Assembly: GCA_937920275.1 (NCBI GenBank)
Contig: CALGVD010000078.1
Span: 1-45,029, forward strand
Direction: 5' to 3'
From: an uncultured Pseudomonadota bacterium
GTDB lineage: Bacteria > Pseudomonadota > Gammaproteobacteria > Steroidobacterales > Steroidobacteraceae
DNA: 45,029 bases
In this document: piece by piece, positions 17,210 through 25,698 of the stretch
How the letters are laid out: each line of letters begins with the position of its first letter
Position numbering within the stretch: position 1 is the first letter of the stretch
The notes under the pieces: model-generated
Databases searched by the model: none
The model's input: only the letters and a program-made list of their open reading frames with translations
Told to the model about the DNA's origin: nothing
Position numbers and translations under genes: made by a program

Positions 17210-17836
17210 TCACGCCGACTCGAGGGTCAGGCTCATGCGGACGACATCGGCCAAGGTGTCGCAGCCGAGTTTCTCCATCATGCGGGCCTTATAGACCTCA
17301 ACGGTCCGTGGGCTGATGGAAAGCTCCACGGCGATCTCCCGGTTCTGCTTGCCGCGACCGAGCAGCGTCAACACCTGTCGCTCGCGCGGCGTCAGAGCGC
17401 CGATCCTCGCCCACCGGGCGTCGGTCTCCAATCGGCGCTGGTAGACACGGGCGTCCTCGGAGATGGCGTACGACAGCACATCCGCGAGGATATCTTCGTC
17501 GACGGGTTTCTCGAGGAAGTCGACGGCTCCGCCGCGCAGTGCAGCGCGCGTCGTCGAAACATCGCCGTGCGCGGTGAGGACGACGACCGGCAGGGCGATC
17601 GATCGCTTGCGCAGCTCGAACATCAGTTCCAGACCCGTCATCTGCGGCATGCGCAGATCAGTGAGTACGCAGCCGCGGCTGTCGACACCGATCGCACTCA
17701 AGGCCGCCTCTGCCGAGTCGAAGCTCTCGACGACAAGGCCGCGAAGTTCGAGCAACAATCGTAGCGCATCGCGCACCGCAGCATCGTCGTCCACCAACCA
17801 TACCTTGTGGATCGGTTCGGTGACTGACAGGGTCAT
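17210..17836 (-). CDS. two-component response regulator, FixJ/LuxR type
   Basis: 208 residues. The receiver domain (about 10-128) has the acidic pair in LVDDD (Asp16-Asp18), phospho-acceptor Asp60 in LTDLRMP, the switch Thr in VVLTAHGD and Lys in EKPVDE. The LuxR-type helix-turn-helix (about 145-205) reads LTPRERQVLTLLGRGKQNREIAVEL and RTVEVYKARMMEKLG. This is the FixJ/TtrR class of transcription activators. The start overlaps the kinase stop (ATGA), so kinase and regulator are made together. Confidence 0.94.
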   Translation of the reverse strand: MTLSVTEPIHKVWLVDDDAAVRDALRLLLELRGLVVESFDSAEAALSAIGVDSRGCVLTDLRMPQMTGLELMFELRKRSIALPVVVLTAHGDVSTTRAALRGGAVDFLEKPVDEDILADVLSYAISEDARVYQRRLETDARWARIGALTPRERQVLTLLGRGKQNREIAVELSISPRTVEVYKARMMEKLGCDTLADVVRMSLTLESA

Positions 17837-19476
17837 ATGCGGTCTCCGGTGAGTGCTGCGGTCGGCAAAGACAGTACGAAGCAGGCGCCGCCGAGACTCG
17901 AAACGCCGAGCGTCAGGCTGCCGCCGCAGGCCTCGGCCAGTGATCGACTGACCGCGAGGCCGACGCCCATACCGTCAGGCTTCGAAGTGACAAACGCCTT
18001 GAAGAGTTCGTCGTGCACCGGCGAGGGGATGCCACCGCCATCGTCGTCCACCACGATACGCACCAGACCTCCAGATACCGTCGCGTCGATCTCGACCGAC
18101 CGCGTCGGTCTGCCGTCGGTGGCATCGAGCGCGTTGGTGAGGAGGTTGGCGAGGATCACGCCGACGAACACGCGGTCGGCATACACCGTCATGCCGCTGT
18201 CTATCGGAGTCACCCTGATCTCTGCGCTGATGACACGATCGGAATGGCGCAGGGTGTCGATGATCTGCGCCAAAAGCGGCTGCATCAGCAGCGGTTCCAG
18301 TTGCGGATCGCGGCCCGCATAGAAGTTCCGCAGTCGGCGCAAGGTATCCGAGGCCCGCAAGGCTTCGTTGGCGGCCTTACGCAGCGTAGGTGCGAGCCGC
18401 GGGTCCCCCCCATGACGCTCGCCGACCATGATCTCGCCGGCCCGTAGGTAGCCGACCAAGGCGGTGAGCGGTTGATTGAGTTCGTGGGCGAGCGTCGACG
18501 CGAGTTCGCCGGTCAACGCCACCCGCGAGGCGCGGGCGAGACTCGTCTCACGGCTCCGCAATTCTATCTCGCGTTGCAGCGCGGAACGGGCGGAGTCATG
18601 GCGCTCCGTGATCACGGCGCCGAGCGCGAGGCCTGTCGCCAACAGGATGGACATCAGTAGCTGCAGGTCCAGCAACGGCGCGACCTCGGGCAGGCGCTGC
18701 ACACCGAGGATGAGACCGGCCTGCAGCGCGACGGCGGCCAGCAAGAATCCCGGCACACCCCAGGTGAGCGCGGCGGCGATCGCCGGGATGAATAACAGAT
18801 AGAAGAACCGCAGATCCTGCGGATCGCCGATCAGGAACACCAAGGTGAGCGCACCGACGATTCCGAGCAGCACACCCGTGAAAGCCACCGGCTGCTGACG
18901 GATCACGCTCGCCAGCATGCCCGCGGCAGGCAACCGCAGCAACAGCGGGGTCAACAGCAGAATACCGTTGAAGTCGCCGACCGCATATCGCGCCAAGGCT
19001 GGACCGAACATGCTCTGCGGCACCGGACCGAACGCCGTGTACACGCCGACGCCGACCAGCGCCGCAGCCAGGGCCGTCACAGCGGCCACGACGATGAACC
19101 GTAGCGTGCTCGACAGCGTCGCGCCGATACCCGCGACACCGATGCGCTGCATGATGTGCGCCGCAGAGGCATAGACCGCAGCCACTCCCAGAGCGTGCAG
19201 CAACAGCACCCACGCTGGCGACGGCACACCGCGGATCACGACCTCGGAGACCAGCAACGCCAGCACGACCCACCCCACACCCCGTGGATACGCCAAGAGG
19301 AAGGCCAGCGCGAGCCCCGTCTGCGGCGACAGGGGCGTGATGCCGAGCTTCAGCACCGGCTGCACGAAACTCATCGAATCCAGAGCGACATGCGCCAGCA
19401 GATAGGCAACGACGAGACCAGGGCCAGCCCGTACGGTGATGCCCGGATGCAAGCTGACGCCCGACTGGTGAATCAT
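17833..19476 (-). CDS. sensor histidine kinase with MASE1-type membrane domain
   Basis: 547 residues from the ATG at 19476. An ATG at 19536 in the same frame would leave only 15 bp to the divergent gene. The N-terminal 290 residues contain about eight to ten hydrophobic segments of MASE1 character (including RYAVGDFNGILLLTPLLL). A short linker leads to the H box HELNQPLTALVGYLRAGE with His331. The N box is NLLTNALDA, and G boxes DDDGGGIP and GMGVGLAVS follow. The NQPL variant is shared with FixL/DctB-type kinases. The signal is unknown. It pairs with the overlapping FixJ-like regulator. Confidence 0.9.
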   Translation of the reverse strand: MIHQSGVSLHPGITVRAGPGLVVAYLLAHVALDSMSFVQPVLKLGITPLSPQTGLALAFLLAYPRGVGWVVLALLVSEVVIRGVPSPAWVLLLHALGVAAVYASAAHIMQRIGVAGIGATLSSTLRFIVVAAVTALAAALVGVGVYTAFGPVPQSMFGPALARYAVGDFNGILLLTPLLLRLPAAGMLASVIRQQPVAFTGVLLGIVGALTLVFLIGDPQDLRFFYLLFIPAIAAALTWGVPGFLLAAVALQAGLILGVQRLPEVAPLLDLQLLMSILLATGLALGAVITERHDSARSALQREIELRSRETSLARASRVALTGELASTLAHELNQPLTALVGYLRAGEIMVGERHGGDPRLAPTLRKAANEALRASDTLRRLRNFYAGRDPQLEPLLMQPLLAQIIDTLRHSDRVISAEIRVTPIDSGMTVYADRVFVGVILANLLTNALDATDGRPTRSVEIDATVSGGLVRIVVDDDGGGIPSPVHDELFKAFVTSKPDGMGVGLAVSRSLAEACGGSLTLGVSSLGGACFVLSLPTAALTGDRI

Positions 19477-19551
19477 GCCGTCCGCTCGGGCCGAAGGTGG
19501 GCGGTGGAGTTTAGGTGGCGTAGTCGTACGGTTCAACCGTGGGGGTTTGAT

Positions 19552-20685
19552 GTGCGATCCACCATCAGGTTCGGGATCGAGGAAGAGTTCTTCCTCAGTG
19601 ATCTGAGGACCGGCGACATCGTACGCCGTCCGCCGGCAGCATTCGTGGGCGACTGCCGTCGCGCGCTGGGCGAACGGCTCTCGAGCGAACTTCTTCAGTG
19701 CCAGCTAGAGACGACGACACCGGTCGTCTCCTCCCGAGACGAGGCACGGCGGCACTTGGTGACGAGCCGCGCCGAACTCATCCGGATCGCTGAACGCTAC
19801 GGCATAACAGTGGTCGCTGCGGGCACCCATCCGCTCGCGCAATGGCGTGGCCAGCTCGGAAGCCGGGCGCTGCGGTACCGTCAGCTCTTCGACGACTTCC
19901 AGATCATCGCGCAGCGCAACCTGCTCTGCGGCCTACATGTCCATGCCGAGGTCCCGCCGACGGTGGACCGGATCCTGCTCATGAACCAAGTGATGCGCTG
20001 GCTGCCGATGCTGCTGGCGCTCAGCGCCTCGTCCCCGTTCTGGGCCCGGCGCGACACCGGGATGATGAGCTATCGACAGAGCGCCTACGACGAATGGCCC
20101 CGCACCGGCATCCCGCGGTTGTTCCGGGATGAAGACGAGTATCGACGCTATATCAGCGTGCTGATCGCCGCCCGCGCCATCCCTGACGAGAGTCATATCT
20201 GGTGGGCGATACGCCCCTCCTCGCGCTATCCGACGCTGGAACTGCGCATCGCCGATTCCTGTCCGCGCCTGGACGACGCCATCTGCATCGCTGACCTGTT
20301 CCGGACCCTCGTCCATCAACAGATCGGCGCGATCCAATCGGGCGTGGCGCAGTGCAGCGACGGCATTGAGCGTCTGCTCATCGAGGAGGACCGTTGGCAG
20401 GCCAAGCGGTTCGGTGTAGGCGCGCGGTTCATCAGCCCCCCAGCTGCCGAGCCGCTGGATCTGTCGTCCACCCTCGACCGATTCGTCACGACCTGCGGAT
20501 CAGCGCTCGATGAGATCGACACCGCATGGGCCATCGACCACGCTCGGACGATCATCCGCTGCGGCAGCAGCGCCGACCGCCAACGCGCGATCCATGCCGA
20601 CGCCAGAGCTCGAGGCTTGCCTGAGCGGCAGGCGTTGCGCCAAGTGGTCGATGCCTTGGTCGCGGAGACGAGAGGCCAGAGCTAG
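19552..20685 (+). CDS. carboxylate-amine ligase, YbdK family (glutamate-cysteine ligase type 2)
   Basis: 377 residues from a GTG at 19552. The frame is open upstream, but the family begins here (RSTIRFGIEEEFFLSD) and E. coli YbdK has 372 residues. Motifs include the ATP/metal-binding GIEEEF, CGLHVHAEVP and WWAIRPSSRYPTLELRIADS. Family members ligate amino groups to glutamate; E. coli YbdK has weak glutamate-cysteine ligase activity, and the physiological substrate is uncertain. It is divergent from the MASE1 kinase, with 75 bp between starts, and convergent with the CarH-like gene. Confidence 0.88.
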   Translation: MRSTIRFGIEEEFFLSDLRTGDIVRRPPAAFVGDCRRALGERLSSELLQCQLETTTPVVSSRDEARRHLVTSRAELIRIAERYGITVVAAGTHPLAQWRGQLGSRALRYRQLFDDFQIIAQRNLLCGLHVHAEVPPTVDRILLMNQVMRWLPMLLALSASSPFWARRDTGMMSYRQSAYDEWPRTGIPRLFRDEDEYRRYISVLIAARAIPDESHIWWAIRPSSRYPTLELRIADSCPRLDDAICIADLFRTLVHQQIGAIQSGVAQCSDGIERLLIEEDRWQAKRFGVGARFISPPAAEPLDLSSTLDRFVTTCGSALDEIDTAWAIDHARTIIRCGSSADRQRAIHADARARGLPERQALRQVVDALVAETRGQS

Positions 20686-20740: not shown

Positions 20741-21679
20741 TCAAGAGTAATGCTGCGCCGAGAGCAGATCCAGACGCTGCTCGAAGTCCTGGCCCGTGGG
20801 CAGCATCACGCAGCCCGGCGGCATTTCCTCGGTCAACAACATCCGCGCCGCGAAGCCACCGACCCATACCTCGCACCGACCCCGCAGCGCATCGGCGAGG
20901 GTTGCCAGCTGCTCGAGCGCCGGCACTTCGTTCTCGGGCATGACGAGTGACACCAACACCGCGCGCGCCTCGACCTCGAGGGCGAAGCGGGCGAGCTCCT
21001 CCGCCGGGCAATCAGCGCCGAGATAGTGCGTCCGGAACCGGCGCGTCGCCGCCAGCCAACTGCACATCAGGATACCGAGCTCATGACGCTCGCCGGAGAG
21101 CGTCGCCAGCACGAGACAGGGCCCCTGGTCGTTGCGCAGGTATCCCCGCGACACGGAGATGATCAGACGGCGCACGATGTCGGTGACCCTATGCTCCTGT
21201 GCGATCGACACTTCGCCGCGATGCCAACGCTCACCGACCTCACGGAGTAGCGGCACCAACACCGAGTGCACCACCTCGCTGGGCGGCAAGAGCGCCACGG
21301 CTGAAGTCAGCACTTCCTCGACGCCGTAGAGGTCCGAGCGGACCGTGGCGTCGAGCGCCCGATCGACATAGGACTGGCCGCGGGTCGGGCCGGGCTGAGC
21401 CTGGCCGCCAGAGTCTGCGATCAGTTCGGCGAGCGCGTCCGCATCGAGCTTGGCCAGGCGGCTGATGGTGTGACCGAGTTCAGTGGCGGTACGCAACAGG
21501 CGCAATCGACCGACATCCGCGGCCGTGTAGGACCTGCGGCCACCGGCATCCCGGCAGGGCTGTACGACCTCGTATCGACGCTCCCAAGCCCGCAAGGTCT
21601 CGACACTCAGCCCTGTGGCTTGGGACACCGCCTTGGTCGTGAACGGCCCACTGGGGGGATACGATGCGGGCTTGTCCAT
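20741..21679 (-). CDS. CarH/LitR-type B12-dependent photoreceptor and MerR-family repressor
   Basis: 312 residues. A MerR-type winged helix (about 12-80) has TTKAVSQATGLSVETLRAWERRY and GGRRSYTAADV. A four-helix B12 cap domain (about 100-185) follows, then a Rossmann cobalamin-binding domain (about 186-305). The cap has the Wx9EH motif (Trp152, Glu162, His163) with His153 next to the tryptophan. The Rossmann domain has the lower cobalt ligand His199 in GERHELG. These match Trp131, His132, Glu141, His142 and His177 of Thermus CarH. So it probably binds adenosylcobalamin, represses DNA as a tetramer in the dark and releases it in light. The start at 21679 is chosen because the third operator repeat overlaps it and the N-terminus fits the family. 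Confidence 0.92.
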   Translation of the reverse strand: MDKPASYPPSGPFTTKAVSQATGLSVETLRAWERRYEVVQPCRDAGGRRSYTAADVGRLRLLRTATELGHTISRLAKLDADALAELIADSGGQAQPGPTRGQSYVDRALDATVRSDLYGVEEVLTSAVALLPPSEVVHSVLVPLLREVGERWHRGEVSIAQEHRVTDIVRRLIISVSRGYLRNDQGPCLVLATLSGERHELGILMCSWLAATRRFRTHYLGADCPAEELARFALEVEARAVLVSLVMPENEVPALEQLATLADALRGRCEVWVGGFAARMLLTEEMPPGCVMLPTGQDFEQRLDLLSAQHYS

Positions 21680-21700
21680 GTTTTGTTCAGGTTTTGTCCA
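21668..21700 (-). promoter_or_regulatory. three tandem 11-bp repeats: probable CarH operator
   Basis: Reading the minus strand, TGGACA (21700-21695), TGAACA (21689-21684) and TGGACA (21678-21673) recur at exactly 11-bp intervals, with A-rich flanks after the first two. The last copy is part of the photoreceptor start codon (ATGGACAAG). A fourth related box, TGTACA, lies 15 bp upstream at 21710-21715. CarH proteins bind head-to-tail to 11-bp direct repeats with a TnnACA core, so this is probably an autoregulatory operator that also covers the divergent amine oxidase promoter. Confidence 0.75.
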
Positions 21701-21722
21701 CCTAAAAGATGTACAAGATATT
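21694..21722 (+). promoter_or_regulatory. probable promoter of the amine oxidase gene
   Basis: TTGTCC (21694-21699), a 17-bp spacer and GATATT (21717-21722): each hexamer matches the sigma-70 consensus at 4 of 6 positions. The -35 element coincides with the first CarH-type repeat, and the TGTACA box lies in the spacer, so repressor binding would block RNA polymerase. Confidence 0.5.
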
Positions 21723-21831
21723 GACGGACCTCCCACCGGATGTCACGGTTTTCCCGACGACCCTCATCCGCCTTCTGCCATGAGCGTTCTGCCATGATGC
21801 GAGGCATCGACCCGCTGCGAGGTGGCTGCCT

Positions 21832-23280
21832 GTGACCCTCTCCCGTCGAGATTTCCTGATCTCATCCGCCGCCACCTCCTTCGCGAGCGTGGCGCCTGGC
21901 GTGCGCGCCGCCGGCAACGGTCAGCCCGATGTGATCGTCATCGGTGCCGGGCTTTCGGGCCTCGAGACCGCACTGACCCTCGAAGAGAACGGCTTCAAAG
22001 TATTGGTGCTCGAGGGGCGTCATCGCATCGGCGGTCGCCTCTACACCCTGTTCGACCTGCCGGGCCATCCCGAAGCGGGCGGCAACACCCTATCGAACGC
22101 CTATGGCCGTACGCTCGCCGCGGCGCAACGCAACGGCGTCGAGATCGTGAACCTCGCGCCGAGGACGTCCGGGAACCGCACCGGCCAGGCACTTTTCATC
22201 GGCGGTGAACATGTACCGCTTGCGGACTGGGCGGCGCATCCACGCAACCCGTTCACAGGTGATTCGCGCAAGCTGCCGCCTTGGGGCTGGGCCGCTGCGA
22301 TCTTCCGGCAGCACATGCCCTTCAAAGATCTGGCGAACTGGCACGACGCCGCACACGCGCAGCATGACATCTCCGTGCATGATTTCCTCTCTGCGCAAGG
22401 CGCGACCGACGCACAGATCCGCCTCGGCTACGACACCAACATCGCCTACGGCACCACCGCGCGTGATGTCTCGCTCTTGCAGCAGGCTTCCGCCAACCAC
22501 TGGCAGGCCGTGAACCGCAGCGCGGCGACCACGGAGCTGCTGCTCGGTGCCTGCAAGGGCGGCAACCAGAACCTGCCGATCGCCATGGCCCGCCGGCTCA
22601 AGGGCGACCTGCTGCAAGGCAAGCGTGTCGCAGGGATCGAAGCGGGTGCCACCGGAGCGGTCGTGCGCTGCGCCGATGGCTCACGGTACTCCGCCAAGGC
22701 GGTCGTCTGCTCGATGCCGTTCTCGACGCTGCGCGATGTCGCGATCGATCCGCTGCCGCCTGGGCTGCAGCACAAGGCCATCCAGACTCTCGGCTACCTC
22801 CCCATCACCCAGTTCCACCTGCTCGCCAAGGAGCCGTTCTGGGAGACGGACGGCCTCTCGCCCTCGATGTGGACCGACGGACCGCTCGGCATGGTGCTCG
22901 CCCAACGCTTCGGCCGCAGCGACAGCGAGGTCACGAGCCTCACCGCGTGGTGCCGCGGCCTGAACGGCCTCTCCATCGACCGCTTCGGCATCGAGGAAGG
23001 CAAGCGCATGATCCTCGACGAATTCGCACGGCTGCGGCCCGCCTCCAAGGGTCTGCTCACCGTGGGCGCGGTGCACTCCTGGACCGCCGACCCGTTCGCC
23101 GCGGGCAGCTGGGCGATCTTCCAACCCGGACAGGTACGCGAGCTGCGCGCCGCGATGGCGCTGCCACACCAGCGGCTGTTCTTCTGCGGCGAGCACACCG
23201 CCCTCGGCAGCCGCGGCTTCGAAGGCGCGCTCGAATCATCGGAGCGCGTCTCACTGGAGGTGCTCACCGCTCTCGGCTGA
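21832..23280 (+). CDS. Tat-exported flavin-containing amine oxidase family protein
   Basis: 482 residues from a GTG preceded by GAGGTGG. The N-terminus LSRRDFLISSAATS is a twin-arginine signal, so the flavoprotein is exported folded. The dinucleotide fold is VIVIGAGLSGLETAL, followed by LEGRHRIGGRL. The C-terminus has FFCGEHTALGSRGFEGALES, the FAD-binding end of the monoamine/polyamine oxidase superfamily. Substrate is unknown. The divergent CarH-like gene and shared operator suggest light or B12 control. The FabH-like gene follows after 94 bp on the same strand. Confidence 0.88.
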   Translation: MTLSRRDFLISSAATSFASVAPGVRAAGNGQPDVIVIGAGLSGLETALTLEENGFKVLVLEGRHRIGGRLYTLFDLPGHPEAGGNTLSNAYGRTLAAAQRNGVEIVNLAPRTSGNRTGQALFIGGEHVPLADWAAHPRNPFTGDSRKLPPWGWAAAIFRQHMPFKDLANWHDAAHAQHDISVHDFLSAQGATDAQIRLGYDTNIAYGTTARDVSLLQQASANHWQAVNRSAATTELLLGACKGGNQNLPIAMARRLKGDLLQGKRVAGIEAGATGAVVRCADGSRYSAKAVVCSMPFSTLRDVAIDPLPPGLQHKAIQTLGYLPITQFHLLAKEPFWETDGLSPSMWTDGPLGMVLAQRFGRSDSEVTSLTAWCRGLNGLSIDRFGIEEGKRMILDEFARLRPASKGLLTVGAVHSWTADPFAAGSWAIFQPGQVRELRAAMALPHQRLFFCGEHTALGSRGFEGALESSERVSLEVLTALG

Positions 23281-23374
23281 CCCGGCTGACGACGCGTGGA
23301 AGCGGGCCGCCAAGGGGCGTATCCTGCGGAGTTCGCCCGAAAAGCCGGGCCAGACCACGCGCGAGGGACACCAT

Positions 23375-24454
23375 ATGCCGAATGCGGCCATCACCGGTTG
23401 GGGCAAGTGCCTTCCGCCCAATATCCTGTCGAACGGCGATATCTCGACCTTCATCGAGACCAACGACGAGTGGATCTCCTCCCGCACCGGCATCTGTGAG
23501 CGGCGCATCTCCCATACCTCGCTCAATGACCTCTTCCATGTCGCCGGCGCCCGCGCCCTCGCCTGCGCCGGCCTGCAGGGCAGCGACATCGACCTCATCG
23601 TCATCGGCTCGACCACCTATGACGACCAGTGCCCGAACGCGGCCTCCAGCCTGCAGCAGCGTCTCGGCGCCGAGGGCTGCGCCGCGATGGACCTCAACAC
23701 CGCCTGCACGAGCTTCCTCTATGCGCTCTCCACGGCGACCGCGATGATCCGCAGCGGCGTGGTGCGCACGGCGCTGGTCGCGGGCGGCGAGCTCATCTCA
23801 CCCTTCATGGACTGGAACGACCGCAATGTCGCCGTGCTGTTCGGCGATGGGGCTGCCGCCGTGGTGCTGCAGGCCACCGACCGCGACGAGGGTCTGCAGA
23901 TCGAGAAACTCGGCTGCTACGGCGAGTCCCGCGAGATCCTCCGCATCCACGGCATCGGCGGCGCCTACACGCATCAGGGTCGCCTGCTCGGTGCCACCGA
24001 GTGGCAGTTCGAGGGTCAGGAGATCTTCAAGAAGGCCGTCCACGGCATGGGCAGCGCCTGCGAGGATGTCTTGAAGCGCGCCGGCCTCAGCCCCGACGAC
24101 ATCGACCTCGTGATCCCGCACCAGGCGAACCTGCGCATCATCGAATCGGTCGCCAAGCGCGCCGGTGTCCCGATGGAGCGCGTGTATGTGAACGTGCAGC
24201 GCTACGGCAACATGTCGGCGGCGACCGTGCCGGTGGCGCTCTGCGAGGCGCTCGAAGACGGCCGCGTGCGTCCGGGTGCGCAGCTGCTGATGCCCGCCTT
24301 CGGCGGCGGTCTCACCTTCTGCGCGCACCTCGTGCGCTGGGGTGAGCGCATCACGCCGCTCGCCAGCACCGATATCGATCTGCCGCCCGCATCGCGCAGC
24401 GCACTCGAGATCGTGATGGGCTATCGCGCTGCACGCGGGGCTGCGATCGCGTGA
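23375..24454 (+). CDS. beta-ketoacyl-ACP synthase III-like protein (FabH family)
   Basis: 359 residues, with GAGGG ahead of the ATG. The catalytic triad is visible: Cys111 in LNTACTSFLYAL, His249 in IPHQANLRII and Asn279 in RYGNMSAA. The GDGAAAVVL segment is also typical. FabH condenses acyl-CoA with malonyl-ACP. It is longer than E. coli FabH (317), with a C-terminal extension after GGGLTFCAHLVRWG. It is not in a fatty-acid gene cluster, so it may be a specialised paralogue for a branched or secondary product. Its stop overlaps the transporter start (GTGA), implying coupled expression. Confidence 0.9.
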   Translation: MPNAAITGWGKCLPPNILSNGDISTFIETNDEWISSRTGICERRISHTSLNDLFHVAGARALACAGLQGSDIDLIVIGSTTYDDQCPNAASSLQQRLGAEGCAAMDLNTACTSFLYALSTATAMIRSGVVRTALVAGGELISPFMDWNDRNVAVLFGDGAAAVVLQATDRDEGLQIEKLGCYGESREILRIHGIGGAYTHQGRLLGATEWQFEGQEIFKKAVHGMGSACEDVLKRAGLSPDDIDLVIPHQANLRIIESVAKRAGVPMERVYVNVQRYGNMSAATVPVALCEALEDGRVRPGAQLLMPAFGGGLTFCAHLVRWGERITPLASTDIDLPPASRSALEIVMGYRAARGAAIA

Positions 24455-25698
24455 GCCCCGCTGCGCCCGGTGCGACCCACGCGCCAGGCGCACCCGATCC
24501 ACGGCGACGCATGCTGCCGGTCGCCGCAATGGCGCTGTTCATCGACTCGATGGGCATCGGCATCATCATCCCGGTGGCGCCCACGCTCATCATGGAGCTC
24601 TCAGGACTGTCCATCGCAGAGGCCGCGCCGATCGCCGGCTGGCTCACGCTCTCCTATGCGCTGATGCAGTTCGTCTTCTCGCCGATCCTCGGCAACCTGA
24701 GCGACCGATATGGCCGCAAGCCCATCTTGCTCGCCTCACTTGCCGCGCTCGCCATCGACTATGTGCTCATCGGCCTCGCACCGACGCTGGCGTGGCTCTT
24801 CGTGGGACGGATCATCGCGGGCATCGCGGGCGCCACCTTCGCCACCGCCAACGCCGTGGTCGCCGACATCATCCCGCCCGAGAAGCGCGCCAAGTATTTC
24901 GGCTTCAACGGTGCCGCATGGGGTCTTGGGTTCGTGATCGGCCCCGTGATCGGGGGTCTGCTCGGCCAGTACGGGCCGCGTGTGCCGTTCTTCGCCGCCG
25001 CCGCATTCACCGCGGTCAACTTCTTCATCGCGCTCGCCGTGATGCGCGAGACCCTGCCGCCCGCCGACCGCCGCGAGTTCTCGGCGCGCCGCGCCAATGC
25101 GCTCGGCGCGCTGCAGTCGATGCGCCGCATCCCCGGGGCGATGCGGGTCCTGTTCGTGCTCCTCATGTACCAGATCGGCCACGACACCCTGCCCTCCACC
25201 TGGGTCTGGGTCACGATGGCGAAGTTCGGATGGACGGAGCGCGACATCGGTCTGTCCCTCGCCGTCCTCGGTTTCGGCACCATCATCGTGCAAGGCGGGC
25301 TGGTCGGACTCTTCACCAAGCGCATCGGCGAACACCGCACCGCGCTGCTCGGCCTCGCCTGCGGCGCGATCGGATTCGTCGGCTATGCGTTCGCGACGAC
25401 GCCCACGATGCTGTTCGCGAGCGTGCCGCTCGCCTGCCTGATCGGCCTCACCATGCCCGCATTGCGCGCGATCCTCTCCCGTGCGACGCCCGCCAACGCC
25501 CAAGGCGAACTGCAGGGCGCGATCGCCGGGATCGTGAGCTTCACCGCCGTCGTCATCCCGTTCACGATGACGCATCTCTTCAGCTGGGCGACCGCGACCC
25601 ACCCGCCGTTCCCAGGCGCGTCGTTCCTCGCGGCGGCGGTGGCGCTCGCGGTGGGCGCGGCGGTGTTGGTGCGGGTCAGGGTGCCGGGGCGGGCTTAG
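24451..25698 (+). CDS. major facilitator superfamily exporter, TetA-like (DHA1)
   Basis: 415 residues from a GTG overlapping the FabH-like stop. Twelve hydrophobic segments are expected. The TetA-class N-terminus is FIDSMGIGIIIPVAP, motif A is GNLSDRYGRKPILLAS between helices 2 and 3, and motif C-like glycines appear in GFVIGPVIGGLLGQYGP. It is likely a proton-driven efflux pump. Tetracycline transport is not implied, since many chromosomal DHA1 members share these motifs. The last 23 bp overlap the end of the convergent DUF3617-like gene. Confidence 0.88.
   Translation: MSPAAPGATHAPGAPDPRRRMLPVAAMALFIDSMGIGIIIPVAPTLIMELSGLSIAEAAPIAGWLTLSYALMQFVFSPILGNLSDRYGRKPILLASLAALAIDYVLIGLAPTLAWLFVGRIIAGIAGATFATANAVVADIIPPEKRAKYFGFNGAAWGLGFVIGPVIGGLLGQYGPRVPFFAAAAFTAVNFFIALAVMRETLPPADRREFSARRANALGALQSMRRIPGAMRVLFVLLMYQIGHDTLPSTWVWVTMAKFGWTERDIGLSLAVLGFGTIIVQGGLVGLFTKRIGEHRTALLGLACGAIGFVGYAFATTPTMLFASVPLACLIGLTMPALRAILSRATPANAQGELQGAIAGIVSFTAVVIPFTMTHLFSWATATHPPFPGASFLAAAVALAVGAAVLVRVRVPGRA

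Follow-up and report, generated by a model that had tools for sequence, protein, structure and literature searches.

What does a putative B12 photoreceptor of the CarH/LitR family control when its operator runs into its own start codon and the gene facing it encodes a putative amine oxidase? The question is raised by a stretch of 45,029 nucleotides (the window; contig C78 of a 2.7-Mb genome), in which a litR/carH-type gene of 312 aa (20741-21679, minus strand) diverges from a flavin amine oxidase-like gene of 482 aa with a GTG start (21832-23280, plus strand; PF01593, E 1.1e-50).

The photoreceptor candidate is composed of a MerR-type HTH, a B12-binding four-helix domain and a Rossmann domain. 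The Pfam models MerR_1, B12-binding_2 and B12-binding all score above cut-off (55.1, 48.6 and 37.1 bits) and the closest solved structures in the PDB are CarH entries (E 1e-31); the NCBIfam CarH equivalog NF052513 gives 145.3 bits, below its curated cut-off of 400. The preliminary description had listed W152, H153, E162, H163 and H199 as cofactor residues. Counted from the ATG at 21679, all five are present at these numbers and align with W131, H132, E141, H142 and H177 of Thermus CarH, four of which (W131, E141, H142 and H177) are named in the accessible portion of PMC11796333; the same portion gives the light-response signature GxxW, EH, GxxH and GxxxP.

Residues and signature were tabulated for 42 proteins (19 of the genus including that of the window, L020 and 22 others) in addition to Thermus CarH; L022, L026, L034, L035, L036-L069, L070-L079 and L089 are outside these tables. 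The signature is present in the window protein and in all 18 proteins of L002-L019 (19/19), and the five cofactor residues are likewise kept in 19/19 scored genus proteins. The protein of L020 departs from the signature at a single position, with Asp in place of the Gly of GxxH. Among the 22 more distant homologues, 19 carry Glu-Arg instead of Glu-His and three have the complete signature. As most scored relatives are without the His pocket, the genus has kept it, or regained it. Several of the distant homologues (L021-L033, L080-L088) lie, by eye, between ABC-F-like ATPase and Mla-like transport genes. A regulator that no longer senses light, being a CarA-like or a redox- or B12-status repressor that retained the operator, is an unlikely reading of the locus. 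It would fit the search of the own genome for adenosyltransferases of the CobA/CobO/BtuR type only, which returned none, and the presence of Arg for His142 in 19/23 homologues scored outside L002-L019 (L020 included), by which the pocket is changeable within the family. Its weak point is the 19/19 retention of residues and signature within the genus. The dN/dS of LitR is 0.13-0.22.

On the minus strand of the window, the region ahead of litR reads TGTACA-N9-TGGACA-N5-TGAACA-N5-TGGACA, with unit-to-unit steps of 15, 11 and 11 bp. The palindromic TGTACA (21710-21715) is followed by unit 1 (TGGACA, 21695-21700), unit 2 (TGAACA, 21684-21689) and unit 3 (TGGACA, 21673-21678), all three on the minus strand; since the litR ATG occupies 21679-21677, unit 3 overlaps the start codon and falls within ATGGACA. 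The triple TnnACA-N5-TnnACA-N5-TnnACA occurs once in the window against 0/100 shuffles, and this is its single match in the whole 2.7-Mb genome (a backward control pattern also matches once). The stricter TGNACA-N5-TGNACA is found genome-wide at two overlapping places in the litR operator and at one other place (backward control 1), inside a reading frame that by eye resembles an ABC-F ATPase. The 11-bp repeats that had been described as running into the photoreceptor ATG are thus confirmed, with the claimed positions and steps. An RNA-family scan of the window matched a tRNA alone, and relatives of the locus sought among viral contigs were not found.

Conservation of the repeats in orthologous regions had been named beforehand as a test that could refute the proposal. 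It was assessed in a table of 21 loci (the window, L002-L020 and L022), from which L021, L023-L069 and later loci were left out as having another architecture, belonging to other groups, being partial or duplicating the same contigs. Among records that bear a title, L002-L019 come closest in LitR of this type (74-96% identity); they are metagenome-assembled genomes, labelled in part as Steroidobacteraceae and otherwise as Gammaproteobacteria, Proteobacteria or Nevskiaceae; the 'Klebsiella pneumoniae' titles of L002 and L016 look wrong, because both loci match the window genes as the others do. For L017 and L018, the litR start was shifted upstream by hand (33 and 9 nt, respectively) to in-frame, motif-bearing ATGs.

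The test was passed: tandem 11-bp TnnACA units that end in the start codon occur in 21/21 loci, with TnnACA at the positions of both unit 2 and unit 3 in every one. Three units are found in 15/21 loci and two in 6/21 (L010, L011, L013, L017, L018 and L020), unit 1 being the third unit. Because the spacing from the uppermost unit to TGTACA stays constant (15 bp in 20/21 loci, 16 bp in L020), three- and two-unit loci differ by one whole 11-bp unit. When the two lowest units are aligned with the ATG as sole anchor, the T, A, C and A columns are invariant in 7/7 cases and the other columns in 0/12 across the 21 loci; start-codon columns are left out of this count, which is unchanged without the two hand-moved loci. 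As a check on phase, the loci that match in both units were counted at each shift: 21 at the true phase, 15 at a shift of 11 (one unit up) and none at each of the remaining 13 shifts tried.

That the repeats are due to chance or to coding sequence is barely credible. Unit 3 does overlap a conserved N-terminus, and its conservation could be partly attributable to the protein sequence (Met-Asn-Lys). Codon 2 of litR is, however, GAC, AAC or CAC (Asp, Asn or His) and codon 3 starts with A in 21/21 loci, a base constancy despite a varying residue 2 that fits constraint at the DNA level. Unit 2, moreover, lies outside the gene as read, yet keeps TnnACA in 21/21 loci while its other columns vary, and the triple is matched neither in the shuffles nor a second time in the genome. 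As the compared loci are kin, the constraint extends across one genus plus L020 and does not reflect independent origins. In 25 more distant homologue loci that were scanned, no array of tandem units was seen to extend to the start codon; two TnnACA 11 bp apart occur in 5/25 (L024, L026, L027, L028 and L032). The start-codon-anchored architecture is seen here solely in the window genus and L020, whose LitR finds 2/369 genomes of a class-wide sample at E 1e-75, one of them the window's own genome. The proposal of a CarH-type photoreceptor with autorepression is well supported by its predicted domains, its signature residues and the conservation of its operator.

The gene on the other side of the operator differs among these loci. 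In 18/21 (L004-L020 and L022), the divergent neighbour of litR is a secreted fasciclin (FAS1) gene with a signal-like N-terminus, whereas the amine oxidase takes this place in 3/21. PF02469 was confirmed for the FAS1 partners of L006 and L020, and L015 was counted as FAS1-type from a 66-aa fragment cut by a contig end; L020, labelled Pseudomonadales, also carries FAS1. LitR is present in 20 of 24 genus genomes and the linked fasciclin in 16 (72-100% to the query). Wherever this linked type occurs, it stands adjacent to and divergent from litR on the same contig (16/16 same-genus genomes); in G435, by its coordinates probably the genome of L015, the contig ends within it. The linked fasciclin was sought and not found in the three genomes of the window clade (G000, G032 and G426), nor in any of the four genus genomes without LitR. 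The FAS1 partner of L006 matches ig-h3 (E 9.4e-37) more strongly than the carotenoid-binding AstaP 8c18 (E 5.5e-12). According to the accessible text of PMC10147662, an algal FAS1 binds carotenoids, the cyanobacterial FAS1 tested did not, and sequence alone does not decide the property; with AstaP the weaker match, carotenoid binding here would be a guess.

In the putative FAS1 leader (L006:3863-3948, minus strand, and 11 other loci), a hairpin whose loop contains AGG(A) is conserved about 20 nt downstream of the putative -10, and most loci add a further GGA close to the ribosome site. Its covariation is weak (1/6 pairs changed on both sides, three pairs broken in two loci); we presume a likeness to CsrA targets in its GGA motifs.

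Predicted promoters of the two genes would overlap face to face, given mirrored motifs on both strands. Above the array, the litR strand reads [AG]TGACA-N14-NGTCANNNT in 20/21 loci, with TGTCAANNT in the 18 FAS1-type loci. In the window, this corresponds to a putative litR -35 (GTGACA, 21741-21746, minus strand; [AG]TGACA in 20/21 loci, ATGAAG in L010) 17 bp from a putative -10 (CAATAT, 21718-21723, minus strand), which in FAS1-type relatives is, by eye, the extended -10 TGTCAANNT. The opposite strand reads TTGACA-N14-TGTCA[CT]NNT in 17/18 FAS1-type loci and CTTCATCCT in L010; in the window, a putative divergent extended -10, TGTCACGGT, would lie at 21741-21749 (plus strand). A strict sigma-70 consensus scan of 21600-21860 returned no promoter, so these positions rest on the conserved geometry. 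The litR transcript would then start near TGTACA, with the array inside its 5' leader. A site of the LitR family between transcription start and start codon is known in Pseudomonas mendocina, as the accessible text of PMC9758184 describes. One terminator-like stem (21723-21737, minus strand) covers the putative litR promoter; being weak, with 0.2 expected in shuffles, it was not taken as real.

In 18/18 FAS1-type loci, the putative FAS1 -35 (TTGACA) doubles as a TnnACA unit, one 11-bp step away from TGTACA, which is why the photoreceptor would be expected to control FAS1 as well as itself. In Thermus and Myxococcus, a CarH direct repeat is known to enclose a -35 box, according to the accessible part of PMC9304148. 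It is improbable, in our judgement, that FAS1 escapes repression by LitR and perhaps even profits in the dark, with LitR shutting off a fully overlapping litR promoter. The overlap of the putative promoters, in which the -35 of one covers the extended -10 of the other and vice versa, would allow this, as would the position of the main array on the litR side only, upstream of the FAS1 -35; the 11-bp step between that -35 and TGTACA, like that of known CarH operators, points to control of FAS1.

In the three amine-oxidase loci, the divergent box reads TTGACG, TTGACG and GTGACG (TTGACA in 0/3); in the window, it is TTGACG and lies at 21721-21726 (plus strand). In the LitR tree, the window clade groups with the FAS1-bearing L004, L005 and L013 (92/92) and is surrounded by a larger group of FAS1 bearers. 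The deeper order is not resolved and L020 sits on a long branch, which leaves some doubt about the state at the root; the simplest history would be loss of FAS1 in the window lineage. Since the three amine-oxidase loci belong to a single clade, the missing FAS1 and the decayed box coincide once and not three times. In L005 and L011, a homologue of the amine oxidase is found on the FAS1 strand at a distance of about 3.6 kb, which suggests a route by which a deletion could bring the oxidase to the operator. The own genome has a single fasciclin match, on contig C68. As a relocated target it was rejected: at 50% to the linked fasciclin it is a paralogue, and neither TnnACA-N5-TnnACA nor TGTACA-N9-TnnACA occurs in the initial 20 kb of C68, where it lies.

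The preliminary description had also placed the amine oxidase under control of the photoreceptor. Any nearby promoter of this gene must share about 150 bp with the operator, so light control is plausible by position; against it stand the rarity of the oxidase as neighbour and the decayed divergent -35 in just those three loci. The encoded protein has monoamine oxidase as its best PDB match (E 5.6e-23) and, by eye, a Tat-like N-terminus. That it is a true, adapted and light-induced target with its promoter inside the operator, for instance TTGTCC-N17-GATATT with the -35 inside unit 1, is a tentative reading that we hold at somewhat below even odds. The operator is kept in all three amine-oxidase loci, and roughly 150 bp separate the starts of litR and the oxidase gene, which has AGGTGG of its own ahead of the GTG (by eye). 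The operator half of the region shows few differences in the alignment (the deletion in L003 lies further down), and litR and the oxidase gene are both under purifying selection (dN/dS of the latter 0.12-0.19). Nevertheless, the ancestral -35 has decayed in this clade, and the alternative hexamers are weak and differ among the three loci (TTGTCC/TTGTCT, GATATT/GATAGT).

The surroundings of the pair vary as well. In the window, litR is separated from a DUF1800/DUF1501 pair by a block (17210-20685) that encodes a YbdK-type carboxylate-amine ligase, a MASE1 histidine kinase and a LuxR-type response regulator. In L002 and L003 (LitR 96 and 94% identical), DUF1800 directly follows litR, so the block was either gained in the window or lost in those two loci. 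Downstream of the amine oxidase (23375-25698), a KAS III-like enzyme is encoded together with an MFS exporter related to Tet families, below their cut-offs.

By gene content, the host is an anoxygenic phototroph. Contig C91 of the same genome encodes BchC, BchZ, PufL, PpsR, a (bacterio)chlorophyll synthase and BchP, all above curated cut-offs, and a phytoene synthase (crtB) homologue below its cut-off. Reaction-centre genes are present in 20/24 genus genomes; where completeness reaches 90% and contamination does not exceed 5%, the count is 12/12. Of 60 sampled family genomes (own included), 22 have LitR homologues, 11 reaction centres and nine both (Fisher p 0.0011, uncorrected for relatedness); LitR homologues were counted at E 1e-20 or better, so the Glu-Arg type is included. 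On contig C91 of G000 (about 21631-24078), a protein with a B12-binding domain adjoins ppsR. It may constitute a second B12-linked regulator in the genome, of the AerR/PpaA type.

A carotenoid or photosynthesis target was rejected for the strict motif only, on the basis of scans of the whole genome, of C91 and of the photosynthesis regions of L113 and L114. The strict-operator scans returned the own operator, the ABC-F ATPase-like frame and a cytochrome-oxidase subunit-like frame only (names by eye), and no strict operator was found on C91; the looser TnnACA-N5-TnnACA was absent from the first 20 kb of C91, which hold the crtB homologue. The mark of a carotenoid-controlling CarH was not found, TGNACA-N5-TGNACA being confined to the own operator and one intragenic match. 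The earlier remark that the light response would be unusual, given a target outside the carotenoid genes, holds in essence but overlooked the phototrophic host and the conserved fasciclin partner.

Taken together, we give a probability of roughly 0.7 to the reading that the locus encodes a class I light-relieved autorepressor of the adenosylcobalamin (AdoCbl) type, whose ancestral partner was FAS1. The protein would be a class I CarH/LitR photoreceptor-repressor. In the dark, its AdoCbl-bound oligomer would sit on two or three tandem TnnACA units and block litR transcription; these units would take up the litR leader, beginning shortly after the transcription start and ending in the start codon. 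In the light, the Co-C bond would break, the oligomer dissociate and litR be expressed. In the presumed ancestral form, retained by most of the genus, the putative divergent promoter of a secreted FAS1 would share the intergenic region; in a phototroph, this protein would probably serve in photo-oxidative stress or adhesion. In the window lineage, FAS1 would have been lost, the divergent box would have decayed and the amine oxidase would have moved beside the operator, with or without inheriting its light control. We consider it an even bet that, in this genus of phototrophs from fresh water, the B12 photoreceptor forms a dedicated two-gene switch, governing itself through ATG-anchored 11-bp units that are gained or lost and one secreted fasciclin through a combined -35 and unit, instead of pigments, and that one lineage exchanged the fasciclin for an amine oxidase.

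As far as the accessible sources describe it, CarH/LitR is known chiefly as a carotenoid switch, with class II acting on photolyase and similar genes. A search of the open-access literature (subscription papers being mostly outside its scope) found no paper on a fasciclin together with LitR or CarH. If true, a LitR-fasciclin pairing in bacteria with bacteriochlorophyll genes would be a new output for B12 light-sensing and would tie it to a protein class linked elsewhere to photo-oxidative stress. The gain and loss of 11-bp units with the start codon as anchor would further offer a natural series on the number of units that the repressor needs.

Fasciclins with a link to photo-oxidative stress occur in Azospirillum and Rhodobacter. 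That of Azospirillum brasilense is under RpoE-ChrR and tied to flocculation and, by a cited title, to photo-oxidative stress (PMC10949492, accessible part), and in Rhodobacter sphaeroides RSP_1409 increases under such stress (PMC7074977, accessible part). They differ from the fasciclin described here in being under RpoE-ChrR control or plainly stress-induced, and the accessible parts of both sources mention no B12 photoreceptor partner. The class II LitR proteins of Pseudomonas (PplR1, PmlR2), as far as the accessible texts describe them, have the TGTACA core in common with the window, and PmlR2 has one site between transcription start and start codon, as proposed here. They possess one of the two B12-binding domains, whereas the window protein has both, and their spacing is N12 against N9 plus 11-bp tandem units. 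The operators of Bacillus megaterium LitR/CarH and of myxobacterial CarH have variable numbers of TnnACA repeats, as found here, and the crtI-carH pair of the Sorangiineae is likewise divergent; the partners named in the accessible texts are carotenogenic, unlike those of the window genus. CarH of Thermus thermophilus (class I LitR) shares with the window the domain order, the five cofactor residues and three tandem 11-bp units. The accessible part of PMC9304148 defines the CarH operator as three tandem 11-bp nnnnTnnACAn repeats, and the window operator conforms to this tandem definition of class I CarH/LitR. Unlike for Thermus CarH, no strict-form carotenoid or photosynthesis operator was found in the window genome. 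Furthermore, one unit of the Thermus operator includes the promoter -35, as the accessible text describes, whereas the units in the window would fill the leader of the regulator's own gene and end in its start codon.
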